Below the pieces are notes generated by a model that ran no database searches, was not told the origin of the DNA, and saw only the letters and a program-made list of their open reading frames with translations. A stretch of 40,824 nucleotides of DNA from Paludibacteraceae bacterium (GTDB lineage Bacteria; Bacteroidota; Bacteroidia; Bacteroidales; Paludibacteraceae). Shown here in pieces: positions 1 through 3,900 of this stretch (position 1 is the first letter of the stretch; each line of letters starts with the position of its first letter). The position numbers and the translations under genes were made by a program. The DNA lies in the NCBI GenBank assembly GCA_017384225.1, contig JAFNUD010000097.1, forward strand, positions 1 to 40,824, given 5' to 3'.

Positions 1-1737
1 GAAGACACCTTCACCCTTCTTAGCAGAGATATGTTGGCATTGGTAGCTACCACCCCAATCCTCTACGAGGATATTCATACCAGAGAGTTGCTCTTTGATT
101 TTCTCTGGGTTAGCGGTAGGCTTATCGCACTTGTTGATAGCGAAGATCATAGGTACGCCCGCTGCTTGCGCGTGGTTGATGGCCTCGATGGTTTGAGGCA
201 TGACCGCATCGTCGGCAGCCACAATGATAATCGCGATATCCGTTACCTTAGCACCACGTGCACGCATAGCGGTAAACGCCTCGTGACCAGGGGTATCGAG
301 GAACGTGATATGTTGACCATTCTTCAGCTGCACGTTGTATGCACCAATGTGCTGGGTAATACCACCTGCCTCACCCGCAATCACGTTGGCATTACGGATA
401 TGGTCGAGGAGCGAAGTTTTACCGTGATCCACGTGACCCATGACTGTCACGATTGGGCAGCGCTCGGTAATATCCTCGTCGTTGATTACCTCATCAGCAT
501 TGATCTCCTCTACGACTTCGGCAGAAACAAACTCAGTAGAGAAGCCAAACTCCTCAGCTACGAGATTGATAGTCTCGGCATCAAGACGTTGGTTGATACT
601 AACCATCACGCCAAGCATCATACAAGTACCGATGACCTTGGTCACAGGCACATTCATCATCACAGCGAGGTCATTAGCAGTCACAAACTCGGTGAGTTTC
701 AGCACCTTGCTTTGTTCTTGCTCTGCAGCACGCTCTTGTGCCATCTTCTCACGCTCTAACTCGCGACGCTCACGTTTGTATTTGCTGGTATTGGTCTTAC
801 CTTTGTTGCCTTGCAAGCGTTGGATAGTCTCCTTGATTTGGCGTTGTACAGCCTCGTCATCGACCTCCACTTTGAAACCTTTAGCCTTGTTGTTCTTCTT
901 TTGAGGTTTCTGATTGCGCGCATCATTGACGTCCACCTTATTTTGTTTGATGCGCTCGCGCTTACGTTTTTCACCGTCCTTAGAAGCCTCATTGCCGTTG
1001 TTGCTACCATTATTGGCAGCAGGTTTGTTGGCCTTGCGTTGTTGCTCGCGTGCTTCACGTTCTTTGCGTTTTTCCTCCTTAGTTTTTTTAGTAGGATGCG
1101 TAGCAGTATTGATGCTGCTCAAGTCAATCTTGCCCAGCACCTTAGGTGCATTCTTTAGCACAGGTTTGCCCAAGGTGAAAATTTCTGTTTCCTCCTTTTC
1201 TGCAAGTTGTTGTTGTGCTTGCTCCTTAGCAAGTTGCGCTTTACGTTCTGCTTCTTTCGCAGCCGCTTGTTGCGCTTGTTTTGCAGCTAAACGTTCAGCC
1301 TCAGCCTTTGCCTTGGCTGCTTTTTCTGCAGCTTCTTTCTCTGCAAGCAATTTGGCTTCTTCGGCTTTTTTAGCCTCTTCAGCAGCTTGGCGCGCAGCCT
1401 CCTCTTCAGCTCTGCGTTTTTTATCTGCATCCAAATCGATTTTACCAACCATTTTGGGTTTGGGCACCTCGGTAGGAATATGTTCTGGTTTCTTTGGCTC
1501 GTCAATAGCGACAGACTTAGGAATATCACGTTCTTGACGCTCCTGTGCCTGACGCTCTGCTTCCAACTTCAACGCCATGTCTTTGTTGAATTCTTTAGCG
1601 AGCATTAGGTACAAGTCATCATCAATACGGGTATTAGGATCCGTTGCGATTTCCTTACCCTGCTTCTTACAGAATTCCACGGCGGTGGACATGCCGATGT
1701 TTAATTCTTTACAAGCTTTGATAAGTTTAATTGCCAT
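1..1737 (-). CDS. infB: Translation initiation factor IF-2 (C-terminal part outside window)
   Basis: IF-2 is the GTPase that places fMet-tRNA on the 30S subunit and promotes 70S joining in the cytoplasm. The first 579 codons are present; the rest lies beyond base 1. Visible are an N-terminal helical domain starting [15 protein letters not shown], and a long Lys/Glu/Ala-rich linker of low complexity (about residues 115-300). A second IF2_N-type domain follows, then the G domain with G1 GHVDHGKT, G3 DTPGHEAF and G4 NKCD. The start at 1737 gives the usual Bacteroidales N-terminus; no Shine-Dalgarno sequence precedes it. It is the last visible gene of rimP-nusA-infB, separated from nusA by 215 bp packed with small hairpins (see the spacer entry). 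The linker is typical of the family and explains why this stretch yields many spurious open frames on the other strand. Confidence 0.97.
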
Positions 1738-1952
1738 ATTCGTGTTCGGCAATGGCTTGCATTCAAGCGGTGGTGTGCGCTTTGCGCAGGTTGTGTCGCT
1801 ACGCGAGATTTTGCACCTTCGGCGGGCTACCGCTCGCTTTTGCGAGCCATCACTCACGCCCCGCGTGCATTACTTCGCCACAAGGCGACTTTACCGCTGC
1901 TTTGCAGCCTTAACCTCCTTGCCGTCGGAGGGGTTTTATCATTTATACTTAA
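1738..1952 (-). promoter_or_regulatory. nusA-infB spacer: array of eight mini-hairpins
   Basis: This GC-rich spacer holds, in plus coordinates, stem pairs 1755-1759/1764-1768, 1776-1780/1784-1788, 1796-1799/1803-1806, 1832-1837/1842-1847, 1855-1859/1863-1867, 1875-1879/1884-1888, 1896-1900/1904-1908 and 1914-1918/1927-1931. Seven of the eight have 4-6 bp stems and loops of 3-5 nt; the last has an 8-nt loop. They are spaced roughly every 14-25 bp. No promoter of the TAnnTTTG type and no convincing ORF is present. The hairpins would lie in the infB leader of the operon mRNA. Function is unknown; the structure is read directly from the sequence. Confidence 0.75.
1914..1931 (-). repeat. 18-bp palindromic repeat, copy 1
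   Basis: On the minus strand this reads CCTCCGACGGCAAGGAGG: a 5-bp stem with loop GACGGCAA, 21 nt after the nusA stop codon. An identical copy lies at 3323-3340, after rimP. The loop hexamer CGGCAA is the reverse complement of TTGCCG at 1747-1752, just upstream of the infB start. Confidence 0.85.
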
Positions 1953-3209
1953 TTAGTCTTCAAACTCAGCAGCGAGGATAGCAATCACCTCGTCAATGGT
2001 CTCTTCCTCAAGGTCAACGCGCTTCACCAACTCTGATTTCTCTACGCTCAAAACAGCCTTAGCCGTATCCAAACCTATAGCCTTGAATGCGTCAAGAACC
2101 CATTGATCGATCTCGTCGTTAAACTCGTCCAAATAGATATCCTCGCTATCAGCCTCATCCATCTCGCGATAAACGTCGATTTGATAACCAGTCAGCATGC
2201 TTGCTAACTTGATATTATAACCACCCTTACCGATAGCCAACGACACCTCTTCAGGCTTGAGATAAACCTCTACCATCTTTTCCTCCTCGTTGATATTCAT
2301 CGATGATATTTTAGCAGGAGCCAGAGCACGTTGTACATAGAGGTTGATATTTGATGTGTAGTGAATCACATCAATATTTTCGTTGCGCAACTCGCGTACG
2401 ATACCATGGATACGCGCGCCCTTGATACCCACGCATGCGCCTACAGGATCAATACGATCGTCGAAAGACTCTACAGCCACTTTAGCACGCTCACCTGGAA
2501 TACGAGCAATATTTTTGATAGCAATCAATCCATCATGTACCTCTGGTACCTCTTGTTCAAAGAGACGTTGCAAGAAAAGTGGCGATGTACGAGAAAGAAT
2601 AATCTTAGGATTTTGGTTCTTATTATCTACTTGTACCACTACTGCACGCACTGTGTCACCCTTACGATAAAAATCTGTTGGAATTTGGTTTTGTTTAGGC
2701 AAATAGAGTTCGTTTCCTTCCTCGTCCAAAAGAAGCATCTCCTTCTTCCATACTTGGTACAACTCACCACTCACCACTTGACCCAACATTTGCGAATAAT
2801 GCAAGTATAGGTTCTCTTTTTGCAAATCCAAAATACGGCTTGCCAATGTCTGACGAAGATTCAGAATCATACGACGACCAAAAGAAGCAAACTCTACTTT
2901 GTCAGTCACTTCCTCGCCCACTTCTGCCTCATCATCAAGCAATAGTGCCTCAGAGAGCGCAATTTGCGTATCAGGGTTCGCAACATCATCATCCTCCATA
3001 ACCAGGCGGTTGCGATAAATCTCAAGATCGCCTTTATCTGGGTTGATAATCACATCATAGTTAGCATCTGTACCATACATCTTGGTGATTACATTGCGGA
3101 ATGAATCCTCCAAAACGTTGATAAACGTTTGGCGGTCAATGTTTTTTAGTTCTTTAAACTCTGAAAAAATGTCAATCAGGTTGATTGATTCTTGTTTTTT
3201 AGTTGCCAT
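1953..3209 (-). CDS. nusA: Transcription termination/antitermination factor NusA
   Basis: NusA binds RNA polymerase and nascent RNA and modulates pausing, intrinsic termination and rRNA antitermination. The 418-residue product has the NusA N-terminal domain (LIDIFSEFKELKNIDRQTF at the start), then an S1 domain, then KH domains containing GACVGIKGARI and LAIGKGGYN, and an acidic C-terminal tail. I chose ATG 3209 (MATKKQES). An upstream in-frame ATG at 3233 would add eight residues, but it sits beside a hairpin, and family N-termini begin at the later Met. The bases just before ATG 3209 closely match those before infB, which supports this start. The spacer to rimP (157 bp) carries several inverted repeats. 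Confidence 0.97.
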   Translation of the reverse strand: MATKKQESINLIDIFSEFKELKNIDRQTFINVLEDSFRNVITKMYGTDANYDVIINPDKGDLEIYRNRLVMEDDDVANPDTQIALSEALLLDDEAEVGEEVTDKVEFASFGRRMILNLRQTLASRILDLQKENLYLHYSQMLGQVVSGELYQVWKKEMLLLDEEGNELYLPKQNQIPTDFYRKGDTVRAVVVQVDNKNQNPKIILSRTSPLFLQRLFEQEVPEVHDGLIAIKNIARIPGERAKVAVESFDDRIDPVGACVGIKGARIHGIVRELRNENIDVIHYTSNINLYVQRALAPAKISSMNINEEEKMVEVYLKPEEVSLAIGKGGYNIKLASMLTGYQIDVYREMDEADSEDIYLDEFNDEIDQWVLDAFKAIGLDTAKAVLSVEKSELVKRVDLEEETIDEVIAILAAEFED

Positions 3210-3366
3210 TTCGTATTCGGCAATCTCGCGCATTGACCGACGACCACGTCGTCGTTAGGGCGCTCGATGCCTCCACTCTATCCTCGAAGCCACGAGCTTC
3301 TCGGATGTTTTCGAGGGAGACTCCTCCTTGCCGTCGGAGGTAATTTAAATGTTTATTGTTATTATT
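3210..3366 (-). promoter_or_regulatory. rimP-nusA spacer with stacked inverted repeats
   Basis: The spacer begins, 26 nt after the rimP stop, with the 18-bp palindrome (3323-3340). It then holds a 7-bp stem 3310-3316/3282-3288, which includes a smaller internal alternative. Last is a perfect 7-bp hairpin with 3-nt loop at 3238-3254, close to the nusA start. It ends with ATTGCCGAATACGAA abutting ATG 3209. No TAnnTTTG promoter is visible, so nusA is probably transcribed from the rimP promoter. Confidence 0.7.
3323..3340 (-). repeat. 18-bp palindromic repeat, copy 2
   Basis: Identical on the minus strand to the copy at 1914-1931 (CCTCC, loop GACGGCAA, GGAGG). The loop can pair with TTGCCG at 3218-3223, ahead of nusA. 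Confidence 0.85.
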
Positions 3367-3855
3367 CTAAAATTTCAAATCGTACTTGGTGTATTTAACT
3401 GCGTCGTAGGCAAAGGTGAGAGTTTGGATCTCTTTTTGTTTGCGTTTTTTACCTTCAACCGCTACCAGCATCTCTGTCTCAATAGCAAAAGAGTCTTCAT
3501 CCACGCTCACGAGTGTACCACGGTATTTTTTACCATCAGCAGCCAAAACTTCTACATCATGATTGAGGTGCTTGGTATATTGCATCTTTGTCACAAAAGG
3601 TGCAGTTAAACTTACACTTCCCACTTCCAATGAATAATCATCGCCTTCTCTACCCTTCTGCTCCTCACTTCTTGCCTCCAATTGCTCTACAAGGTAGTGA
3701 TTCAACTCCGCACAGAAATCTACATCTACCCCTTCGAGTTTATCTACCTCGACCAAGATTTCATTCTGTACATTCACTTTCAAGGTAATCAATTCATATC
3801 CAGTCCCTTGAAGCTTATCTTGGATAATCGATTGTATATATTGTTTATCTATCAT
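3367..3855 (-). CDS. rimP: Ribosome maturation factor RimP
   Basis: RimP assists 30S subunit assembly. The 162-residue product has the family pattern: an N-terminal alpha/beta domain (MIDKQYIQSIIQDKLQGTGY, then LKVNVQNEILVEVDKLEGVDVDFCAELNHYL) and a C-terminal SH3-like barrel (about residues 85-160). The family signature DYSLEVGSVSLTAPF corresponds to the usual YxLEVSSPGL, slightly diverged. Length is normal. It is the first gene of rimP-nusA-infB and has its own Bacteroidetes-type promoter and a hairpin in the 5' leader. The identification rests on domain pattern plus gene order, which is widely conserved in bacteria. Confidence 0.95.
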   Translation of the reverse strand: MIDKQYIQSIIQDKLQGTGYELITLKVNVQNEILVEVDKLEGVDVDFCAELNHYLVEQLEARSEEQKGREGDDYSLEVGSVSLTAPFVTKMQYTKHLNHDVEVLAADGKKYRGTLVSVDEDSFAIETEMLVAVEGKKRKQKEIQTLTFAYDAVKYTKYDLKF

Positions 3856-3874
3856 AATTGTATTTTTATAAAAC

Positions 3875-3900
3875 TGAGGGAACCTTGTCAGGCCCCCTCA
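3875..3900 (-). promoter_or_regulatory. 5'-terminal hairpin of the rimP operon mRNA
   Basis: In the minus-strand RNA an 11-bp stem with loop GACA forms (3890-3900 with 3875-3885). Two of the pairs are G-U wobbles that would be A-C mismatches in plus-strand RNA, so the structure is specific to the rimP transcript. It begins within a few nucleotides of the predicted transcription start and is not followed by a long U-run, so I read it as a leader structure and not a terminator. Confidence 0.6.

Follow-up and report, generated by a model that had tools for sequence, protein, structure and literature searches.

A patchily distributed pseudoknot leader ahead of infB, nusA and unrelated genes in a genus of Paludibacteraceae

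Introduction

Small H-type pseudoknots that act as translational leaders are known from the preQ1-I and SAM-II riboswitches, and the preQ1 aptamers hold the sequence of the ligand pocket. The S4 leader of the alpha operon is a structured translational operator with a pseudoknot, while REP- and MITE-like repeats are found as many short, structured intergenic copies whose presence is patchy between species. The leaders of S15 (rpsO) are reported to be structured translational operators of varied architecture (PMC4684408), and a survey of ribosomal protein leaders includes those of L13 and S4 in Bacteroidia, with neither infB nor nusA named in its main text (PMC7247131). In the literature that we searched, which includes that survey, PMC2864571 and PMC8040213 and few of the subscription journals, we found no pseudoknot leader of infB or nusA in Bacteroidales. 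The ribosomes of Bacteroidia have been reported not to recognise Shine-Dalgarno sequences (PMC9976891), and how a single gene is controlled at initiation in such a lineage is a question that bears directly on this leader.

The window analysed here, by which we mean the whole stretch of 40,824 nucleotides (contig JAFNUD010000097.1 of assembly GCA_017384225.1), comes from a genome (G000) that belongs to a large genus of Paludibacteraceae. The closest named relatives of its NusA are metagenome-assembled genomes of Paludibacteraceae or Bacteroidales, many of them from ruminants or other herbivores. The original prediction held that two spacers of one operon in this window share both ends, that the loop of a palindrome at the upstream end could contact the sequence ahead of the start codon, and that this contact would expose or hide the start codon and so coordinate the translation of nusA and infB. 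Here, we follow up these claims by comparing the spacers across the genus.

Results

The two leaders of the window. The spacers lie on the reverse strand between rimP (3367..3855; the best NCBIfam match, below the whole-protein cut-off), nusA (1953..3209; NCBIfam NusA, above cut-off) and infB (1..1737, continuing past the edge of the window; the best NCBIfam match for a truncated piece of IF-2, below the whole-protein cut-off). Both hold a common hairpin, CCTCC-GACGGCAA-GGAGG, and a common tail, TTGCCGAAYACGAA, ahead of the AUG. Namely, the identical 18-mer CCTCCGACGGCAAGGAGG lies at 3340-3323, 26 nt past the rimP stop, and again at 1931-1914, 21 nt past the nusA stop, just where the original prediction had placed it; what had been called an 18-bp palindrome is, however, a 5-bp stem with an 8-nt loop. 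In the nusA leader, the 3' part of the loop of this hairpin (H1, 3323..3340, reverse strand) reads CGGCAA (3333-3328; strand S2 of the pseudoknot discussed below) and is the exact complement, as had been claimed, of TTGCCG at 3218..3223 (S2', reverse strand), 8 nt upstream of the nusA AUG (3209-3207). In the infB leader, H1 (1914..1931, reverse strand) presents the same CGGCAA (1924-1919) to TTGCCG at 1747..1752 (reverse strand), 9 nt upstream of the infB AUG (1737-1735). The tail does abut the ATG at nusA, whereas its infB copy carries an extra T and reads ACGAAT directly before the ATG.

The interiors of the two spacers are unrelated in sequence. Between H1 and the nusA AUG lies a copy of a dispersed structured core repeat (3211..3279, reverse strand), the 3' strand of which overlaps S2'; its score of 91.6 bits with our covariance model R1 is that of one of the 41 copies used to build the model. 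The infB interior (1753..1913, reverse strand) has no core repeat and is rich in hairpins; among the sequences collected here it is found whole only in its own genome, with a 32-nt partial match in two other loci (L357 and L369). Since only the ends are common to the two leaders, the first reading saw two spacers with the same ends. By way of side observation, a chain of short GC-rich hairpins occupies 1753-1913, and across the genus both spacers, judged by eye, show near-total divergence between close species, many of them being packed as far as the ends of the genes with short repeats or inverted repeats.

Exact copies of the 18-mer are rare: two places in its own genome and three in all, from 2 of the 61 genomes searched (its own included). 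The third, in G014, likewise has a TTGCCG partner, and in none of these 61 genomes is the 18-mer scattered without one. The tail TTGCCGAAYACGAA occurs three times in its own genome. At the third occurrence the tail runs one base into a CorA-family gene (Pfam CorA, E 5e-48), its final A serving also as the first letter of the ATG, and a variant hairpin, CCTCT-GACGGCAT-AGAGG, stands upstream. A search of positions 1500-3900 of the window against Rfam 15 at E up to 5 returned two sub-threshold snoRNA matches only, and a search of 11 further loci at gathering score returned tRNA only. A transcription terminator was considered and rejected by eye, there being no run of T after H1.

Pairing across the genus. 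We gathered the rimP-nusA-infB regions of the genus, obtaining 168 infB and 166 nusA leaders including repeats from the same genome, or 121 and 119 distinct leaders, respectively. Twelve loci that we judged to belong to other genera, by name and by a NusA identity of 65-72%, were excluded from the pairing test; pairing at infB is absent from all 12. In each leader the CCTC hairpin was chosen without regard to pairing, and exact pairing was defined as at least 4 complementary nucleotides between the 3' end of the loop and the leader. Spacers shorter than 30 nt (10 infB and 51 nusA) fell outside the hairpin search, and CCTC occurs in none of them. A CCTC hairpin is present in 38 of the 121 distinct infB leaders, a count that any knot on another stem would escape, the criterion having been derived from the first examples. 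The other 83 are without the feature, which is therefore dispensable at infB.

In 37 of the 38 the 3' end of the loop pairs exactly with the leader ahead of the AUG, and the 38th (L310, ACGGTG/CACTGT) pairs with one G-U. When leaders were swapped between species, by comparison, the mean was 14.4 and the maximum 23 of 38 in 2000 trials; the carriers share ancestry, so that these counts, like those from the shuffles given below, overstate independence, and it is on this cross-species test that we exclude chance. At nusA, just 4 of the 119 spacers have a CCTC hairpin, and all four pair, one of them (L308) by a different sequence, CTGGCT/AGCCAG. Across the leaders seen, the paired sequence takes at least ten forms, each with its own complement; besides those of L310 and L308, the pairs include CGGCAA/TTGCCG (the window), CGGAAT/ATTCCG, GAACTA/TAGTTC, CGGA/TCCG, GAGCG/CGCTC, CGAC/GTCG, GGCA/TGCC and CGGCG/CGCCG, and at one orphan gene CGAGCT/AGCTCG. 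On a NusA tree of 121 sequences, made by a quick method with SH-aLRT support, the type of S2 changes at least 13 times among carriers, with all types containing CGGC grouped as one and with L043 (CGGAAT), L096 (GGACTA) and L310 (ACGGTG) set by hand.

Anatomy and energetics. What emerges is an H-type pseudoknot that is compact in part of the species; in the rest it is enlarged, frequently by the dispersed repeat. The loop of S1 pairs with a downstream strand, both helices show compensatory change, and the downstream strand lies at the ribosome binding site. The compact form, seen in 21 of the 38 infB leaders and free of any repeat body, begins with an S1 of 4-6 bp, followed by 1-3 nt and then by an S2 of 4-6 nt that lies directly at, or one nucleotide ahead of, the 3' strand of S1; a 9-10 nt A-rich linker (e.g. 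AATAAACAA) leads to S2', from which 6-9 nt remain to the AUG. In the long form (17 of 38) an insert sits inside this linker. Over the infB and nusA leaders, S1 and S2' lie anywhere from 9 to 161 nt apart, but the gap between S2' and the AUG is always 4-9 nt, which is consistent with the predicted closing of each spacer into a domain.

In an alignment of the compact form, with 20 distinct rows and the pseudoknot written out, four of the five S2 pairs show changes on both sides, as does one pair of S1, and CCCTC is invariant. The covariation score is 0.175 against a shuffled mean of 0.089, with 0 of 500 shuffles as high and with slid versions at or below 0.075; the score is lowered by three misaligned rows, whose loop or stem is longer. 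One of five control measures was not extreme, 22 of the 500 shuffles reaching the observed number of further pair types. The contact between loop and leader that had been proposed, as either a kissing interaction or a pseudoknot, is thus borne out in the form of a pseudoknot, and we regard it as very likely that this structure is one maintained in evolution.

Over its best nested fold, the pseudoknot gains between 0.2 and 10 kcal/mol before any pseudoknot penalty (41 leaders), with a gain of 7 kcal/mol or more in just 14 of the 41. Thermodynamics alone is indecisive here: small predicted gaps are compatible with two states, and also with a knot that rarely forms.

The dispersed core repeat. 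The core repeat, AGAGYGGAGGC...GCCGAACRCGA, folds into one long irregular helix. Over 41 aligned copies, 95.9% of cells pair and 15 of 19 pairs show changes on both sides; the covariation score is 0.426, against 0.151 for shuffled alignments and at most 0.06 for slid versions. A dispersed bacterial repeat with base-pair covariation of this strength is conserved in its fold as a nucleic acid rather than letter by letter. As judged from these alignments, covariation supports the S1, S2/S2' and core repeat helices alike. The covariance model finds 15 places in the genome of the window at E up to 1, the weakest of which lies inside a long reading frame and is probably chance. At E up to 0.01 it matches 49 of 101 genomes, namely 49 of the 61 of the genus and 0 of the 40 from other genera, with up to 38 matches in a single genome; these counts are lower bounds, since the filters were stricter here and the number of scored candidates was capped.

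To describe the surroundings of the repeat, we used 101 distinct copies with their flanks, from loci chosen by match and hence not a random sample. The end falls at -1 to +5 of a start codon in 35 copies. Of these, 30 are preceded by the hairpin and pair with the tail over at least 5 bp, whereas a pseudoknot of that length is found in 0 of the 66 others (a 4-nt match is present in three). The contrast is plain, but the events are not independent, as orthologous leaders of different species each enter the count. Other copies end at other boundaries. In particular, 14 end 0-4 nt ahead of tRNA genes, 4 of the 7 within 40 nt of an antisense stop codon end at 0 or -1 of it, 6 of the 11 within 30 nt of an antisense -7 box (for which the promoter motif was taken to be TANNTTTG) end at +3, 2 lie at antisense tRNA 3' ends, and 31 are near nothing recognised. 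In other words, core repeats without the hairpin also adjoin tRNAs and antisense gene ends, and abutment to a start codon alone is no sign of translation control.

Exact boundary ends of such hairpin-less cores are frequent in L192, L193, L196-L198, L200, L202, L203, L128, L160 and L161, where they fall 1-4 nt ahead of tRNA genes, at antisense stop codons or 3 nt from antisense -7 boxes; the 5' side, judged by eye, seems to stop within free spacer. For the boundary-ending repeats of these genus loci, we found no target site or mechanism. As further observations, in L181 three core copies stand 185-200 nt apart, alternating in tandem with a terminator-like hairpin unit, and in L168 a copy lies just 3' of a tRNA gene.

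Carriers and patchiness. Paired leaders precede infB, nusA and genes for an RseP-like protease, PNPase, FtsY and ribosomal protein L32, the last of these above its whole-protein NCBIfam cut-off and the other three below theirs (PNPase and FtsY being truncated by the ends of their loci); the sole ribosomal protein gene among the carriers seen is the one at locus L140. Further carriers are a deoxynucleoside kinase, CorA, some of the proteins in an orphan family and a HAD-like protein (Pfam E 0.074, below cut-off). Presence of the leader at infB changes at least 20 times on the NusA tree, with 13 of these changes forced by well supported branches, and even sister sequences differ: L010 has it and L011 does not, just as L014 has it and L042 does not. 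In G084, two copies of the leader, at nusA and at infB, match one query at 100% and 99%. In L144, a compact pseudoknot leader has a core repeat within it, placed exactly ahead of S2' and sparing both halves; this leader precedes a short orphan frame that is apparently interrupted. L175 is a nested case. Dispersed copies together with patchy presence are the pattern expected of a MITE-like element. Related species without the leader have, by eye, a different spacer, and there was no clean empty site in which to look for a target-site duplication. Taken together, these comparisons suggest a leader that behaves as one mobile cassette, with repeated gain and loss at infB and with copies ahead of several unrelated genes.

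The orphan proteins themselves are of about 90-130 amino acids, with SGK or SGAL near the N-terminus and TLRxYxW near the C-terminus (loci L345-L374). Six genomes (G000, G085, G014, G073, G034 and G146) hold 9-24 matches each, some of them clustered or at contig ends. Pfam gave sub-cut-off matches only, on 4 of 9 aligned proteins (the best being Imm19, E 0.0006), PHROGs gave none at E 0.01, and NCBIfam matched one member at E 0.009 to a model named 'hypothetical protein', so that no clear family emerged from these searches.

Scans for further cases. A general scan for pseudoknots ahead of every ATG, without the CCTC stem, was useless, with 965 hits against 846 in the control (the complement, not reversed). 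Requiring the stem gave 106 against 88 at S2 of at least 4, and separation appeared only at S2 of at least 6 (26 against 4). A strict scan without orthology was run over the window, 400 kb of G085:C4, 15 kb of G146:C11 and some 390 kb from three other genomes, and its 23 hits against 18 in controls left real cases indistinguishable; in G085:C4 it gave 10 against 10, one of which, ahead of an orphan gene at 154868, is by eye a real element. Carriers seem to be few per genome, and only the orthologue-based test was informative.

Discussion

The ends shared by the two spacers are best explained as the halves of one H-type pseudoknot formed by the leader of the mRNA. Here S1 is a CCTC-type hairpin and the 3' part of its loop, S2, pairs with S2', 4-9 nt ahead of the AUG; between S1 and S2' there may be a 9-10 nt A-rich linker, an extra hairpin, the dispersed structured repeat or other structured sequence, with the window nusA leader as an example of the repeat insert and the window infB leader of other structured sequence. 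Acting in the mRNA, the knot would occupy the place where the 30S subunit binds, and its folding and unfolding would set translation of the next gene, repression upon formation of the knot being the most likely direction. In the long forms with a core, S2' may pair alternatively with the 5' strand of the core (GGC/GCC and variants), which would give two mutually exclusive states, as expected of a switch. The three segments change together, as CGGCAA/GGC/TTGCCG, CGGAAT/GGAAT/ATTCCG and GAACTA/GAAC/TAGTTC, an observation made by eye and without statistics. On the strength of the comparative sequence evidence, we think that the pseudoknot leader probably has a role in the translation of the next gene, and that gating of the AUG is the best reading of that role.

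One can take this further and ask whether the leader is a portable translation switch, that is, a mobile RNA cassette that inserts precisely at start codons and brings a pseudoknot of its own, in two states in the long form. We offer this as a tentative idea, which may be right but which we would not bet on; the accompanying notion, that the pairing sequence drifts freely while complementarity and the distance to the AUG are kept, is just as provisional. If it is true, translational control would be added and removed gene by gene in a lineage without Shine-Dalgarno signals. Moreover, a knot at a fixed distance from the AUG that is nevertheless patchy between sister species is a natural experiment, in which related species with and without it can be compared. 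The dispersed cassette ahead of unrelated genes is the unit that the original prediction missed. Its proposed purpose, coordinated control of nusA and infB, fares poorly: the feature is in 38 of 121 infB but just 4 of 119 nusA leaders, and the near-identity of the two G084 copies points to recent spread. Given how few nusA leaders carry it, and that the leader stands at both genes only in the window species and in two more, we consider it highly unlikely that such coordination is what the leader evolved for.

How else could complementarity between loop and tail arise? It could be a signal at the level of DNA: a transposase would recognise, in folded single-stranded form, the paired ends of a small non-autonomous mobile element, and the pairing would play no part in translation. 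The many changes of presence at infB, the near-identical copies at several genes and the up to 38 core matches in one genome all fit such an element, and covarying ends would also suit self-recognition in DNA. A mobility signal should, however, be present in every copy, and the hairpin half (at least 5 bp) is found in none of the 66 cores that do not end at a start codon; S2' holds its 4-9 nt to the AUG, and 21 of 38 infB leaders are compact, without any repeat body. We consider this explanation unlikely. Similarly unlikely, in our view, is a protein-binding translational operator: as with the S15 or S4 leaders, the pseudoknot would be bound by a ribosomal protein or a translation factor, such as a small-subunit protein or IF2 itself, and the genes that carry it would thereby be repressed. 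An invariant CCCTC (compact alignment) beside a free S2 would suit recognition of shape, and the list of carriers does include infB, nusA, PNPase, FtsY and L32. Yet the same list runs on to an RseP-like protease, a deoxynucleoside kinase, CorA, a HAD-like protein and orphan proteins, with a single ribosomal protein gene (locus L140) among those seen, and presence at infB is patchy.

A different pairing altogether could be the functional one, namely a hairpin that sequesters the start codon, TTGCC with the GGCAA of ATGGCAA, instead of the contact between loop and leader. This hairpin does appear in the minimum-energy folds of both window leaders, but the carriers L010 and L013 have ATGGCT at infB and species without the leader also start with ATGGCA. 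We rejected it as not conserved across species, and hold it to be hardly credible as the functional pairing.

Among the closest parallels are the preQ1-I and SAM-II riboswitches, where, as here, a hairpin loop pairs downstream across a linker and the last strand lies beside the ribosome binding site. Unlike in those riboswitches, S2 here changes freely and the loci searched gave no Rfam match; the leader stands ahead of functionally unrelated genes, is patchy between species, and has up to 161 nt between its strands. From the S15 and S4 ribosomal protein leaders it differs in that only one of the carriers seen is a ribosomal protein gene. With REP- and MITE-like repeats it has in common the multiple short structured copies between genes and the patchiness across species, but it departs from them in its strong covariation, as in structured RNA, and in a 3' end that often falls exactly at gene boundaries.
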